From a virus: a DNA stretch of 28,961 bases. This document shows, in pieces, positions 3,800 to 22,309 of this stretch. Position numbers and translations under genes: made by a program. The stretch is taken from the IMG/VR virus record IMGVR_UViG_3300028008_000081, positions 1 to 28,961 of that record; one strand, given 5' to 3'. The notes below the pieces were generated by a model that was not told the origin of the DNA, did no database searches, and saw only the letters and a program-made list of their open reading frames with translations. How positions within the stretch are numbered: position 1 is the stretch's first letter; every line of letters begins with the position of its first letter.

Positions 3800-6679
3800 C
3801 TATTTCTGTTGATTTTGAATAAAGCTTCGTAAACCTTCTAAGGTATCACTGTCTACGTTTCCTCCAACACTACTTGGGACTGTAGCCAACATTCCTAACA
3901 AACGATTGATTTCAAAGTTGTTTGCTTGAACTGCCTGCCGCGTTTTATCATCCTGAATACCGTCGTTTAACGCTTGTAAGTTAGCACGTTTTTGTTGAAT
4001 AGCTAAAGCTTTCATTTCTACAAGTTTGTTAGCTTCTGTTTCAGGGTTGCCAAAGAAAGTATCTGGATTAGGGAACAATGCCCCCACTTTTTCCATCTCA
4101 GCTACTGGGAACCTTGGGTTAACCACTAACGCAGACCGCCCCAAGATGGTTAAACCGCGCAAGAACTGTCTATTTGCTTGAGTGTCTTGGTATCTTTGTC
4201 GAGCCGCAGGGACGAAACCACCAAACACGTTATCTAAGAATACTGCAAATCCAGCATATGGACCTGTACCACCACGAGCCGAGGCCATTGCATCGCGCAT
4301 TAATCCGGCTTCTTCCGATGAAAGAGACGTAGGATTTTCGCGGGTTCCACCTTTGGAAATGATGCCCAACTGCTCGTCCATTAGGTCTAGGTCTTTACCC
4401 GCTGTTAGAGCAATTCGTTGTTTAGCCGCAATGTCGTAAGCAATAGTATCACTTAGTGGGTTAACACCAGTGGTAGGCATACTTACGGATTGACCCGAAG
4501 CATCTAAGTATGTTCGTCCCCCATCGTAGCTTAGTACGTTTCCTAAACCTTGGATTGCAAAAGCTTTGGCCGTAGGCGCAGAATCCGCTCCCATGTTGGA
4601 AACAGTAAACATTTGTGTACCGCCTACGTTTGCTTGGTTAGCCGCTTCCACTGCCGCAAGTCCCGGAGCAGTGGTAACATCTACCACGCGAGTGGTTTGA
4701 TTGTTCATATCACGAATAACCTTAAAGATAGGTTTAGTAGGCGCACCTTCCGCTTTAAATACAGAAGTTGCTGAGTTATCCGCAGGATTAAATAGAACTA
4801 AATCGTCATTGATTACTTTCAATGATGGAGCAAGTCTATCGGCTTTAGCTTCAGCCTCTTCAAACGCTTGTTTACGCAGAGCTAAACTCTCACTAGCGGC
4901 TTGTGTAAGCGTTGCTAGATCAAGGTTGCCTTGTGATATATCAAGGCCGCGCTCTTTAAGTGTGTTCATTACTTCGTTTTGTAGTTGCGTAAGTAAACGA
5001 TCTTTTTCTGCTTCACTACCTGTAAACTCTTGCATGTCATCTTGTAGCAATTGTTTAAAGTTTTGCGCATTAATTTGAAGACCTTCGCGAGCCGCTCTAT
5101 CAAGGGCGTTTTCAGCCGCTGTTGCAAGTTGTTGATTTTGTGCCGCCGCCGCGGCAATTGTGCCTTTATGGTCAGCCAAGGCAACATTAAAGCCATGACC
5201 TTTGTCCATTTGAGCCAACTCATAGCCGTTTTTCACGCCCGCTATTTCTAAAGTATTATCTAAATCAACGGCTTTTTCTGTGATACGAAGTTCACTTCTT
5301 AGCGCGGCTAACTCTTTATCCAATTCACCACGTTGCGCAATAGTTTTTGCATCGTTAGCAAAGCCAAGCGCCTGACGAGAAGCTTTCGCCGAATCAATTG
5401 CATTTTGCAACTCAGACTTGAAGTCTTGCGAAGACAGACGTTCTTTTGTTGTAAAGTCAAATTTGTTGCTTTGAATAACAAGATCGTGAGCTTCAGACAG
5501 TCTTGCCGCTTTAGCTTCTAATTCACTACGAAGTTCAATTTGTTCAGAGGTGAGATCGCCTTTTAAATTCTCAAGAACAAGTTTGCTCTCCGCCAAGTCG
5601 TTAGCTAAACGTAAAGCATAAACTTGCTCGGTTTCATTTTGTTTCTTTTCGAAAGAAAATTTGTTGCCTTGAAGTAGTAACTCTTGAGCGCGTTTTGCGT
5701 TTTGCTCTACCAACTTAGATTGTGCCAGAGCGGATGCCGCCTCGGCATCAATTGCCGCTTGCGTTTCTACGCCTAATTTAGTTTGAGAGGACTGCAACGC
5801 GGCTAGATCAAGCGCTCGTTTTTCAGAATCCTGCCCTTGTTTAAATTTCAATAATTCGCCTGACCGTGCGCCGATGTTACCTAACACAGGTTGAGCTACT
5901 TCTGCCAAACGTTCAGCAGGGCTCATTTGACGATCACCGGGAGTAGCAAAAGCCAAGGCCCCTTGTGCAATGTCAAATAACATTTGGGCTTGAGTCATTC
6001 TTTTCTGTTCGTCGTAAGCCGCTTGTTGATCGTCACTACCTAATAGTTGGTTATATAAAGCCTTATCTTGCTCAAAAAGTTCTAACGCCCGTGGGTTTGG
6101 GGTACCGGCGACACCACCCGGAGCCATATACTGGACCGCGCCGCCTTGATTAAAATTTACAGGAACAGGTGCCTCCTCGGCACCCATATCTACTGTAGAC
6201 ATGATGCCTCCGGCCATGTTTCCTTGTATAGGAGTATCCATTGCTTCAGGAGCCAAGCTCCCTATGCCTTCGTCAACCGCCGCCATTTGCATCACGGGTT
6301 GAACCAAAGTTAGCACAGAGTCTGGTGTACGTTGAGCATCTTCCTCTCCGACCATCTCCGCTAATTCCATCCGGCGCTCTTGCAAAGGCATCTGATCGCC
6401 GCGGATGGAGTTGATTACACCCTCGTAATCTTCATTCTCAGCGGCGGCATCTATACCTTGAAAGTTTCCTGCGGCCTGACCCAACATTTGTTCTAAAATG
6501 GCGGGATCAAGCCCTGCTTGGTTTGCCATATCAGAGGCTTGCGCCATGCTTTCTATTTCCGGAGGTGCCATTGTTTGTTGTGGTGCGGCCGGCATCATCG
6601 GTGACCCACCTGCTTGCATCCGACGTACTTGTCCACCATTAGCAAACATTTGTCGGCTCATTACGCCTCTATCCATCAT
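3800..6679 (-). CDS. Internal virion / ejection-type protein with long coiled coil (959 aa)
   Basis: The start is ATGATG directly after the stop of the upstream gene (TAAATGATG); either Met could be used, and a GGGG stretch about 9 bases upstream may serve as ribosome site. Residues 12-18 (FANGGQV) and 177-192 (NQGGAV, then APGGVAG) carry the GG-x-[V/I]-type motif shared with other proteins here. Residues about 196-300 hold a helical segment of a type I recall from marine phages. Residues about 290-620 are Glu/Lys/Ala/Leu-rich and look like a long coiled coil. The C-terminal part (about 800-959) has the patch FGGFVPAARQRYQD and the phrase NPRFPVAEMEKVGALFP. No enzyme motif is seen. Position between two other giant proteins suggests an internal or ejection protein; the function is inferred from context only. 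Confidence 0.7.
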   Translation of the reverse strand: MMDRGVMSRQMFANGGQVRRMQAGGSPMMPAAPQQTMAPPEIESMAQASDMANQAGLDPAILEQMLGQAAGNFQGIDAAAENEDYEGVINSIRGDQMPLQERRMELAEMVGEEDAQRTPDSVLTLVQPVMQMAAVDEGIGSLAPEAMDTPIQGNMAGGIMSTVDMGAEEAPVPVNFNQGGAVQYMAPGGVAGTPNPRALELFEQDKALYNQLLGSDDQQAAYDEQKRMTQAQMLFDIAQGALAFATPGDRQMSPAERLAEVAQPVLGNIGARSGELLKFKQGQDSEKRALDLAALQSSQTKLGVETQAAIDAEAASALAQSKLVEQNAKRAQELLLQGNKFSFEKKQNETEQVYALRLANDLAESKLVLENLKGDLTSEQIELRSELEAKAARLSEAHDLVIQSNKFDFTTKERLSSQDFKSELQNAIDSAKASRQALGFANDAKTIAQRGELDKELAALRSELRITEKAVDLDNTLEIAGVKNGYELAQMDKGHGFNVALADHKGTIAAAAAQNQQLATAAENALDRAAREGLQINAQNFKQLLQDDMQEFTGSEAEKDRLLTQLQNEVMNTLKERGLDISQGNLDLATLTQAASESLALRKQAFEEAEAKADRLAPSLKVINDDLVLFNPADNSATSVFKAEGAPTKPIFKVIRDMNNQTTRVVDVTTAPGLAAVEAANQANVGGTQMFTVSNMGADSAPTAKAFAIQGLGNVLSYDGGRTYLDASGQSVSMPTTGVNPLSDTIAYDIAAKQRIALTAGKDLDLMDEQLGIISKGGTRENPTSLSSEEAGLMRDAMASARGGTGPYAGFAVFLDNVFGGFVPAARQRYQDTQANRQFLRGLTILGRSALVVNPRFPVAEMEKVGALFPNPDTFFGNPETEANKLVEMKALAIQQKRANLQALNDGIQDDKTRQAVQANNFEINRLLGMLATVPSSVGGNVDSDTLEGLRSFIQNQQK

Positions 6680-19619: not shown

Positions 19620-20270
19620 TCATTGTTTCGGCCTAATTAACATGCCGGTTCGATATTCGTCGGTAACTTCTTTAGACTCACCGAACATTTTCATGCCGCT
19701 GATTGCTTCTGTAAACCGTTTTTCGTAAACGGCCATAACGTCCGCTTCACCTTTCATAAATATGTATGCTTCCATTAAAGCTCCGTAAAGTAACGCCATT
19801 TCAGCGTTTTCACTCAACCAAGTCGTACCACTGTCTGCTCCCGAGGTTAGGCTGGCCGGACGATAAAAGTAATGTAACTCTACAGCGTATGCACTATTCG
19901 GGGTTGGACCCAAAATAAAGTTATCCACGTCAAAAACAGCGTAGTATCGTGGTTTTCCTGTAGTCGAGGCATCTGGATTAAAAGATTGTACAAAATCCAC
20001 GTCTTTAAAGTCTAAAAATACGTGATCTCCGTCAGAATCTACAAAAGAAAGGGCAAAAGGTGCCAAATAATCGCTAGGACAGGCTAAATACTTGTTTGAA
20101 GCCGTCATTCCGCCGGTAACATTTTTTTTAAAAAAACTTAACTGCACGTTTTTAAGAATACGTTCTTCTGCTTGACGAATAAATAAGGGTAAATTACTTA
20201 CAAACGTTGTTTCATCGTTTTCCGTGTAATCCTGAACAGCTTGTTTTAGTTGCGCATATGTAAAGCTCAT
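19620..20270 (-). CDS. Neck/adaptor protein, T7 gp11-like tail tubular A type (216 aa)
   Basis: The N-terminal pattern (FTYAQLKQAVQDYTENDETT, then FVSNLPLFIRQAEERILKNV) and the later YRPASLT and ENAEMALLYGALMEAYIFM match the general style of head-to-tail adaptor or tail tubular A proteins. These are helical N-terminally, with a beta middle and helices that include an LLYGALMEA segment. Such proteins form the dodecameric ring under the portal. The start overlaps the upstream stop (ATGA). A second adaptor-like protein is encoded two genes upstream, and which one contacts the portal cannot be told from sequence alone. Confidence 0.65.
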   Translation of the reverse strand: MSFTYAQLKQAVQDYTENDETTFVSNLPLFIRQAEERILKNVQLSFFKKNVTGGMTASNKYLACPSDYLAPFALSFVDSDGDHVFLDFKDVDFVQSFNPDASTTGKPRYYAVFDVDNFILGPTPNSAYAVELHYFYRPASLTSGADSGTTWLSENAEMALLYGALMEAYIFMKGEADVMAVYEKRFTEAISGMKMFGESKEVTDEYRTGMLIRPKQ

Positions 20271-20569
20271 GTCACCACCGTCACTATTCCAACTTGTCCA
20301 AACCCTGTAGCAGGGCGTAAGTTAGGGTTTTCAATTAAAGGAAGTCCAACATAAACATCCATAGGCTCTATTCGATCGGGTCGTGCGTTTTGCAACGCTT
20401 CTGGGTCCACAACTTTTCTAAAAGGACCAAGTTGCGGATGTTTAGGTTCAAACTCGTCAGGGCCGACAAGAAGACCATTCCATTCCCGGCGCATTAAACG
20501 ATACTTGTATCGTTGCCCAGAACGGTCAGATATAGCCCATGAATTTTTACCAGATGCGAACTTAGACAT
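20267..20569 (-). CDS. Small unknown protein between two neck genes (100 aa)
   Basis: Contains a basic N-terminal part (SDRSGQRYKYRLMRREWNGLLVG), then PDEFEPKHPQLGPFRKVVDP and a C-terminal part rich in Pro and Val. There are no Cys or membrane segments. The start is a TAATG overlap with the upstream adaptor gene, and it is coupled by ATGA to the downstream one, so it probably works in the same neck assembly. No family name can be given. Confidence 0.65.
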   Translation of the reverse strand: MSKFASGKNSWAISDRSGQRYKYRLMRREWNGLLVGPDEFEPKHPQLGPFRKVVDPEALQNARPDRIEPMDVYVGLPLIENPNLRPATGFGQVGIVTVVT

Positions 20570-21237
20570 TACCCCACCCTGTAATTGTCGTATTTTGGTA
20601 CGACGTTAAAAGAAGATCGGTCTCGATCTTCGGTTGCCGCACGATCAAACTCTTCTTCATACACTGATTTGAGTAGCTGAATACGGTTGGGTGCGCGTTT
20701 TAATGCTATATAATACGCTAAACCCGCGGCTAGACAAGGGTAAAACCTGAAAGGCATGTCCATTGTGTTGGTGTAAATGTCCGCATCATCCATGCGAGTA
20801 AGTGCATCGTAATAAATTACATCAGTGCCGTTGTCTGGTACGGGCCACAGCTTCAAAACAGGCGTGACCTGCCGATCTAAGAAAAACTGATTGACGCGGC
20901 TTTGAGTAGATTTATTCGGGATACTTAAAAAGCCATCTCGGCTTAACCGTTGTAGAGAATAATCAGTGCCGTTGCGTTTCACAACAACCGAAAGTATGTC
21001 TATTACATCTTTAGATAGATCATAATCTCCATCTCCAGCTACAGTAGTAATGGTGCGTTGCTTGATTGTCCATTGGTTCAATCCGCGGTTAGCCCAATCT
21101 GCAAGCATAAGATTTAAAGACCTTTTAGCCGTTTTAAGGTCGTAACCGGTGCGCACCTCTAGTCCGCAACGCTCAAACGCTTCTTCAACGTAGTCAGCAA
21201 CGTCTAGTTCAAAATCTTTGCTTCCAGAAACTGTCAT
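20569..21237 (-). CDS. Neck / head-completion protein, P22 gp4-like (222 aa)
   Basis: Starts MTVSGSKDFELDVADYVEEAFERCG and continues with AKRSLNLMLADWANRGLNQW, TVAGDGDYDLSKDVIDI and LKLWPVPDNG, then YYDALTRMDDADIY. The order helix, LNLML-x-x-WANRG, beta strands with DYDL and LWPVPD is what I recall from the P22 gp4 type tail accessory (packaged DNA stabilization) proteins in marine phages. P22 gp4 binds the portal, but the murein-hydrolase activity reported for gp4 is not shown by any motif here. The ribosome site is weak (GAAGAAG inside the previous gene's Lys codons), which may mean coupling to the 47-aa gene. Confidence 0.65.
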   Translation of the reverse strand: MTVSGSKDFELDVADYVEEAFERCGLEVRTGYDLKTAKRSLNLMLADWANRGLNQWTIKQRTITTVAGDGDYDLSKDVIDILSVVVKRNGTDYSLQRLSRDGFLSIPNKSTQSRVNQFFLDRQVTPVLKLWPVPDNGTDVIYYDALTRMDDADIYTNTMDMPFRFYPCLAAGLAYYIALKRAPNRIQLLKSVYEEEFDRAATEDRDRSSFNVVPKYDNYRVG

Positions 21238-21238
21238 T

Positions 21239-21382
21239 TTACTTCTTCTTTACTGCTCCGCCTCGACGCATTTTCTTAACCATGCCGCCGCCGCGCATTT
21301 TTTTAACCATGCCGCCGCTACGCATTTTTTTAACCATGCCGCCTTTGCGCATTTTCTTTACTTTACGAGGTTTCATCGCCAT
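21239..21382 (-). CDS. 47-aa very basic protein made of KKMRxGGMV repeats
   Basis: The short frame opens at ATG 21382, with an AGGAG site 8 bases upstream, and ends at TAA 21239-21241, one base before the next ATG. After MAMKPRKV it consists of four 9-residue units, KKMR-x-GG-[MA]-V, and a final KKK. Twenty of 47 residues are Lys or Arg and none are acidic. It overlaps the 3' end of the 190-aa gene by 20 bases. A KMRLGGEV segment in the 125-aa protein encoded just upstream matches the unit. The ribosome site, gene order and frame-keeping 27-base repeat argue that it is translated. The function is unknown; nucleic-acid binding or a virion assembly tag is possible. Confidence 0.75.
   Translation of the reverse strand: MAMKPRKVKKMRKGGMVKKMRSGGMVKKMRGGGMVKKMRRGGAVKKK
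21251..21358 (-). repeat. Four tandem 27-bp repeats encoding KKMRxGGMV
   Basis: Four direct copies of about 27 bases, seen on the plus strand as variants of gcgcatttttttaaccatgccgcc. The copies differ at a few positions, mostly in the codon for the variable residue (Lys, Ser, Gly, Arg) and in synonymous sites, so the reading frame and protein unit are kept. Confidence 0.85.
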
Positions 21383-21935
21383 TTTTTAATCTCCTGTAAA
21401 ATTTTTTACGTTTTTCGTAGATTTCGAGTGCATTGTACTCAGGATCATAAATACCATAATAACCCTTTTTGTCCAACTTGTCTGCCGATTCCTGCAATTT
21501 AGACAATCTTTGTATAAAAATCATAGCATAAGGCGTGTCCGTCTCTGCTTCAAACTCTGTTTCTTCCACAAATTCGTTTTGTTCATCATCTGGATGAAAG
21601 CCCATTAACCAGATGTCTTTGTCGATAAACGCCCCAGTAGAAATAAATTCGTTTAAGTCATCTAAATACTCGTGAAAAGCTTCCGGGGGCTTATCGTTAG
21701 ACAGGTCCGCTAATATAGCTAATTCAAATTTGTCGTCAAATTGAGATATACAAGAATACAAACTTTGGTAGTTTTCTTCATGTTTAAATAAGATAGCTAC
21801 CTTATCTTCCGCCCACGCTTGGCGAGCATAAGGACAAGGAGGAACGCCATTAAAGTGAGGGCTGGGTATTTCCAACACCTCTTTAGACCAACGCCTAATT
21901 TCTTTTTGAATGCTACCCTCTAAAGCTATAGTCAT
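21363..21935 (-). CDS. Unknown cytoplasmic-type protein with CPYA motif (190 aa)
   Basis: I chose ATG 21935 (ATGA overlap with the upstream stop) over the longer frame that starts at 21992, since the extra 19 residues overlap the real upstream gene. The protein reads TIALEGSIQKEIRRWSKEVL, then HFNGVPPCPYARQAWAEDKV near residues 27-46. The centre (about 60-130) is acidic, with WLMGFHPDDEQNEFVEE, and the C-terminal half is helical. The NG-x-PPCPYA-[RK] motif is one I recall in phage and bacterial unknown proteins, with a CPFAR-like flavour of DUF1415, but homology to that is uncertain. Unlike its neighbours it is acidic and has no repeats, so it may be an enzyme or regulator. Confidence 0.68.
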   Translation of the reverse strand: MTIALEGSIQKEIRRWSKEVLEIPSPHFNGVPPCPYARQAWAEDKVAILFKHEENYQSLYSCISQFDDKFELAILADLSNDKPPEAFHEYLDDLNEFISTGAFIDKDIWLMGFHPDDEQNEFVEETEFEAETDTPYAMIFIQRLSKLQESADKLDKKGYYGIYDPEYNALEIYEKRKKFYRRLKNGDETS

Positions 21936-22309
21936 GATTGTGTAACCGATCCCTTGGTTCTTTTTCGTCTTTCGCTCATAATTGCACCGCACCCACGAGC
22001 CACGGCTGTTCCGGGGACGGATTTGCCGTTAAATTTTCGTTTAGGCTTTGTTACTTCTCCACCGAGCCTCATTTTTCTCACTTTGGCCGCCTTTGTGTTG
22101 GAAACCACTTGCTTACCTTTAGAACCTTCACGCTTTTTTTTGCGCGCAGTCGAAGCCCTTTCAGACTTGCTGAGACTTTCCGCTTTAGCCCGAGGCAAAC
22201 ATCGGTCAGGGTTCTTTTTATTTTTAGAAGTACCGCACTTACCTGCAATGTTACCTTGGCTATCAATTCTGACCCAATCTTCATTTACCCAGTCCTTTAA
22301 TTTTCCCAT
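21932..22309 (-). CDS. Very basic Cys-containing small protein with GGEV motif (125 aa)
   Basis: Starts MGKLKDWVNEDWVRIDSQGN, then GKCGTSKNKKNPDRCLPRAK (Cys25 and Cys37). A Lys/Arg/Ser-rich middle, KMRLGGEV (79-86) and a C-terminal part, ARGCGAIMSERRKRTKG, follow. The N-terminal W-[VF]-x-E-x-WV, then C-G-x-x-K...C-x-P pattern is one I recall from a family of small phage proteins (DUF5872-like flavour, uncertain). The ARGCGA-x-M-x-x-RRK end also occurs in marine phages as I remember. The upstream site is weak (AAAGGGAAAA). It is likely a nucleic-acid or capsid-associated small protein; the role is unknown. Confidence 0.7.
   Translation of the reverse strand: MGKLKDWVNEDWVRIDSQGNIAGKCGTSKNKKNPDRCLPRAKAESLSKSERASTARKKKREGSKGKQVVSNTKAAKVRKMRLGGEVTKPKRKFNGKSVPGTAVARGCGAIMSERRKRTKGSVTQS

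Follow-up and report, generated by a model that had tools for sequence, protein, structure and literature searches.

The mini-gene described here encodes a small basic peptide of Arg-Gly repeats, and comparison of related sequences indicates that this peptide and an acidic, possibly enzymatic protein of 190 residues are an obligate pair in major marine phage groups. The pairing goes beyond what had been noticed in a single sequence and is not visible from the window alone. The window, that is the whole stretch of DNA analyzed (28,961 bases), corresponds to a virus record in IMG/VR. By capsid, its closest sequenced relatives (about 70-73% identity) are the cultured pelagiphages HTVC023P and HTVC027P and the metagenome-assembled phage DSL-LC04 (PMC10611076).

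The mini-gene is on the minus strand, with its ATG at 21382 and its stop ending at 21239, and encodes the 47-residue polypeptide MAMKPRKVKKMRKGGMVKKMRSGGMVKKMRGGGMVKKMRRGGAVKKK. The initial annotation gave no strand, and the plus-strand reading of 21239-21382 was rejected as noise. The protein consists of an N-terminal MAMKPRKV, four KKMRxGG[MA]V units, and a terminal KKK. The units, all on the minus strand, are KKMRKGGMV (21332-21358), KKMRSGGMV (21305-21331), KKMRGGGMV (21278-21304), and KKMRRGGAV (21251-21277). They had been described as four KKMRxGGMV repeats; there are indeed four in-frame units of 27 bp, but the last one ends in AV instead of MV. The variation is mainly at one residue (K, S, G, or R), as had been proposed, and changes elsewhere are mostly synonymous, the other exception being the M-to-A replacement in unit 4. 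The composition also agrees with the earlier account, with Lys and Arg making up 20 of the 47 residues (42.6%) and Asp and Glu absent. No other tandem array in the window scores as high as the 27-bp array (21258-21358), whose TRF score is 139; the top score among 60 first-order Markov windows used as a random control was 98. A structure model of the mini-protein has a pLDDT of 61 and a pTM of 0.20, and the chain is predicted to be disordered.

The AGGAG ribosome-binding site attributed to the mini-gene was located at 21395-21391 on the minus strand, 8 nt ahead of the ATG. The 20-nt overlap with the upstream gene (21363-21382) was likewise confirmed, and a 1-nt spacer separates the stop from the ATG of the downstream adaptor gene at 21237. 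Relatives were collected by the downstream adaptor protein alone, which gave 80 loci, 70 of them with at least 300 nt of upstream sequence. A gene starting with MA[MI]xP was present near the adaptor in 52 of these 70, and the whole set contains 38 distinct proteins. No stops or frameshifts were seen, and the loci that lack the mini-gene carry unrelated genes at this place, not broken copies. A Shine-Dalgarno-like site precedes 51 of 53 mini-gene starts in the relatives, compared with 192 of 1100 control ATGs (17%). For the same 40 pairs of an unbiased set, pN/pS was 0.185 for the mini-gene and 0.117 for the adaptor. The number of units shifts in frame and ranges from 1 to 6 with a mode of 3, in a set that was selected by motif and is hence biased toward conservation. 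Different tails, for instance SVAELRAKAKAKGYKLVKAT or GCAVRNA, are seen in some variants. The Shine-Dalgarno-like sites, the pN/pS, and the in-frame changes of the units support the original proposal of a translated mini-gene, and on these sequence criteria it is a genuine conserved gene.

Searches of Pfam, PHROGs, and NCBIfam gave no significant match to the mini-protein. Directly applied to phages, tblastn gave none either, probably because the low-complexity filter masks the query. The motif KKMRGGG gave no hits in the literature, and no virion proteomics were found for these phages. When bacterial genomes were searched with the pattern KKMRxGGMVKK, the phage version was found on one Maricaulis MAG contig. 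The 17 SAR11 matches, all in one protein of 140-155 residues that we take to be the cytochrome-c maturation protein CcmE, were rejected as a chance resemblance.

Gene order across the relatives identifies the upstream 190-residue gene, and not the downstream adaptor, as the constant partner of the mini-gene. The partner gene (21363-21935, minus strand) encodes an acidic protein (MTIALEGS...NGDETS) of phrog_28122 that is distantly DUF1415-like. In loci picked by the 190-residue protein alone, a basic GG-repeat mini-gene lies directly downstream in 80 of 80 loci of the window type, 77 of 77 of the HMO-2011 type, and 15 of 15 of the CRP-345 type; these contain 51, 38, and 11 distinct mini-proteins, respectively. 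In the reverse test, the 190-residue gene was found upstream in all 102 repeat-selected loci with enough upstream sequence. Among the adaptor-anchored loci, it is present in 46 of 46 with the mini-gene and in 2 of 14 without a recognized mini-gene. One of these two exceptions (L038) has a partner match that is a 28-residue remnant, and the other (L028) has a degenerate partner gene followed by a variant mini-gene without MRGG. The loci in the pairing tests are top-ranked, related, and partly redundant, so the counts do not represent independent events. As read from these neighborhoods, the pairing holds across two phage groups and down to a partner identity of about 34%. Since the mini-gene is always directly behind the 190-residue gene in two groups of ocean phages, the two proteins very probably work as a pair.

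The head-to-tail adaptor gene (20569-21237, minus strand; SU10_adaptor, PF24175) is the downstream neighbor in this lineage only. As a general functional partner the adaptor was rejected, because the pair occurs without it in HMO-2011-type phages; neither in HMO-2011 nor in CRP-345 is the gene after the pair an adaptor. The window contains a separate gene at 19620-20270 that matches the SU10 adaptor family PF24175 as well. Some relatives (L005, L012, L015, and L039) have a further small gene for a basic protein (GLYANIHAKRKRIAAGSGEKMRKPG..., phrog_16028) between the mini-gene and the adaptor; many T7-like cyanophages and pelagiphages carry this gene.

Within the 20-nt overlap on the minus strand (21363-21382), the end of the partner, NGDETS-stop, and the start of the mini-protein, MAMKPR, occupy two frames. 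An overlap of at least 17 nt occurs in 83 of 99 window-type pairs, NGDETS and MAMKPR being two readings of the same DNA. Among the 12 mini-proteins whose genes have a shortened overlap or none, 7 still begin with MAMKPR, and most of their partners lack the NGDET end. The retention of MAMKPR in these cases suggests that the start of the peptide is under conservation.

Relatives of the partner in the phage collection are those of HMO-2011, CRP-345, and CRP-810, which are 34-38% identical to it. The Roseobacter phage CRP-345 has the same gene pair as the window, gp77 (UAW59163.1) and gp78 (UAW59164.1). It differs in that both proteins are annotated as hypothetical, the partner is 38% identical, and the downstream gene is of another kind. 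The start of gp77 (L247:2605-2748, MZ892990.1) is annotated 7 codons late. When the reading is extended to MAMKPRA, it has a 29-nt overlap with gp78; the likely true reading, MAMKPRAMTKKKTPMRGGGM..., has the MAMKPR start and the overlap seen in the window. In the Puniceispirillum phage HMO-2011, a basic MRGG-repeat ORF of 44 residues, MASKKMMRGGMAAKTSPKRMRGGGMMKAASKKKMMRGGMAKKKK (L248:3030-3164, GU557055.1), lies between phage1322_66 and phage1322_65, directly after phage1322_66, the relative of the 190-residue protein. Here the units are KKMMRGGMA and KRMRGGGMM, and the partner is 34% identical. The mini-gene had been thought too short for gene callers, which applies to the unannotated HMO-2011 copy but not to gp77 of CRP-345, which was called, albeit from the late start. 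CRP-810 has a relative of the 190-residue protein with no obvious GG-repeat gene adjoining it; the start of this relative lies in an overlap with a 2OG-Fe(II) oxygenase gene (L249:1935-3043). Small basic proteins with GG-V/M motifs also occur in the structural gene regions of the related phages DSL-LC04 (WJZ48052.1), HTVC027P (gp47, QGZ17828.1), and HTVC104P (gp77, QGZ18031.1). They resemble the mini-protein in these respects, but their sequences are different, and these records contain no match to the 190-residue partner.

The repeat is conserved most clearly around its arginine. Among peptides located by way of the partner, MR stands ahead of the glycine run at 129 of 138 places in the HMO type and at 31 of 34 places in the CRP-345 type. 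Among the window-type proteins, [ML]R(x)GG is retained in 50 of 51 distinct sequences. Arg is kept before the glycines although Lys is the commoner residue (Lys:Arg about 3 to 3.5 : 1 in the mini-proteins). Conservation of one particular residue in this way speaks for recognition of the unit and against a tail of bulk charge.

The explanation that we prefer, and that we hold to have about an even chance of being correct, is an obligate two-gene module of marine tailed phages in which the MR(x)GG units are recognized one by one by the 190-residue protein. The mini-gene and the overlapping 190-residue gene would form this module in the structural region of the genome, and the mini-protein would be a disordered, cationic, multivalent peptide. 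The 190-residue protein would dock on each MR(x)GG unit and would then hold or neutralize the peptide, or might chemically modify the unit arginine. The peptide would subsequently act in head or neck assembly. A module kept in phages of this kind, with one half of it overlooked or annotated wrongly, probably matters to them.

The main rival to unit-wise recognition is condensation based on charge combined with chaperoning. The mini-protein would be a protamine-like internal virion protein whose bulk charge condenses or neutralizes the packaged DNA, and the acidic 190-residue protein would be its chaperone before packaging. We regard this as possible but on balance doubtful. The mini-protein has the high Lys/Arg content and the predicted disorder that such a role implies, most of its versions contain no acidic residues, and this strongly basic chain is matched by a partner with an average net charge of about -17. 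The location of the mini-gene, with capsid genes on one side, connector genes on the other, and several other small basic proteins nearby, would also suit this role. However, Lys and Arg are not exchangeable in the mini-proteins, as charge alone would allow; Arg is found before the glycines and Lys elsewhere, and the M and GG positions are retained as well. The absence of the mini-gene from part of the adaptor-selected relatives is a further point against a protamine-like role.

In the PHROGs search the partner was entered as a 199-residue reading (p199), which starts 9 codons ahead of the probable ATG and matches phrog_28122 over most of its length (residues 16-186, E = 2.1e-28). Trp-16, Cys-34, Ala-37, Asn-95, Tyr-136, Gln-142, Tyr-159, Tyr-160, and Arg-176 are invariant in 174 aligned partner sequences, and Asp-107 and His-114 are nearly so. 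Of the 67 members of the partner family, 33 match DUF1415 weakly (best 1.3e-4) and 5 match DUF6875 weakly (best 0.017), and pairwise hhalign comparison with the two families gave E values of 6e-4 and 1e-3; no homology to a known peptide-modifying enzyme was found, these weak matches being the only ones. The bacterial DUF1415 (PF07209) and DUF6875 (PF21780) proteins share a CP[FY]-type motif with the partner, followed in DUF1415 by HP, and in a profile comparison the CPYA and FHP motifs of the partner align with DUF1415. The partner of the window scores 14.4 bits against PF07209, below the curated cut-off of 26, and is not counted as a member. We know of no function for DUF1415. No MRGG peptide was found beside DUF1415 or DUF6875 genes in the bacterial genes sampled.

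The structure model of the partner is a confident one (pLDDT 87, pTM 0.84). Using Foldseek, only three close viral relatives were found, none of which has a named function; in the Protein Data Bank, no match with E < 0.001 was obtained. When the candidates were realigned, five entries of AglA came first, with Z scores of 6.8-7.0 over 148-154 residues, followed by a next score of 4.7; since the tool warns that best Z scores of 7-8 are common for unrelated folds, the likeness is only suggestive. AglA is an enzyme of argolaphos biosynthesis that acts on free arginine, and the top entries include complexes with Arg. The best structural match is AglA from Streptomyces monomycini (Protein Data Bank code 9ub5 and others; Z about 7), solved with arginine. 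It differs from the partner in having about 10% identity and no sequence match, and a profile search of the Protein Data Bank sequences did not return AglA. The weak DUF1415 similarity, the likeness to the AglA fold, and the conserved residues make an enzyme acting on the unit arginine a live hypothesis, and the 190-residue protein is possibly such an enzyme.

Stated separately, this enzymatic half of the preferred explanation is that the 190-residue protein covalently modifies each MR(x)GG arginine, for example by hydroxylation, in the manner of ribosomally synthesized and modified peptides that have repeated cores. We consider it unlikely, since every link to an enzyme is weak. What speaks for it is the obligate pairing and the Arg specificity of the units, together with the conserved C, N, Q, Y, R, D, and H residues of the partner, its fold likeness to AglA, its weak similarity to DUF1415 and DUF6875, and the oxygenase gene that overlaps its relative in CRP-810. 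The arrangement of a small precursor-like gene beside a conserved partner gene also resembles RiPP-type pairs. In its full form, which is a little more doubtful still, a DUF1415/AglA-like enzyme of abundant ocean phages would modify the MR(x)GG arginines to yield a modified, multivalent peptide with a structural or DNA-binding role. Should the arginine prove to be modified, the pair would represent a system for peptide modification in abundant marine phages; otherwise it would point to an acidic chaperone whose cargo is a repeat peptide. Small partner-peptide systems exist, and no described family fits the pair of the window by test.

A toxin-antitoxin-like or host-directed pair, in which the basic peptide attacks some target in the host and is neutralized by the acidic protein, appears improbable. 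The two overlapping genes are always inherited together with the acidic gene first, as in such systems, but the pair is located among the structural genes, a simple repeat predicted to be disordered makes up the peptide, and Pfam, PHROGs, and NCBIfam gave no toxin family match. Even less probable is a polyprotein-like substrate that a phage protease cuts at the GG sites into nonapeptides: GG recurs regularly every nine residues in the window, but the spacing is irregular in many versions of the mini-protein, and no head protease was among the 25 Pfam families listed, of 31 in all, for the 53 proteins of a near-complete relative. That the tandem 27-bp repeat acts as DNA or RNA, or is a spurious ORF without a protein product, is scarcely credible given the conserved frame, the ribosome-binding site, and the pN/pS of 0.19. 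An RNA structure at the mini-gene was rejected on a fold z-score of +0.56.

Motifs similar to the repeat unit are also found once each in two other proteins of the window: KVRKMRLGGEV in a basic protein of 125 residues (21932-22309), and MFANGGQVRRMQAGG at the N terminus of a protein of 959 residues (3800-6679). In relatives, these single copies are at constant places, in a 107-125-residue protein and at the N terminus of a protein of roughly 1000 residues. There is only weak support for the GG motif as a tag common to virion proteins, and several other matches, such as the one in GroES, are due to chance. Two repeat proteins (L143:10866-11240 and L187:4047-4418) contain an EF-hand/dockerin-like stretch, LSGDNKVTKKDVL, which is also present near the N terminus of the structural-region protein of roughly 1000 residues in relatives (L208:3520-6711). 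In L131, L138, L156, L179, and other loci, the repeat protein has an alternative C-terminal tail, (S/T)VA(E/D)LR..AK.KGYKLVK. This tail weakly resembles part of phrog_10541 (E = 0.006, with a hybrid of two variants as the query).
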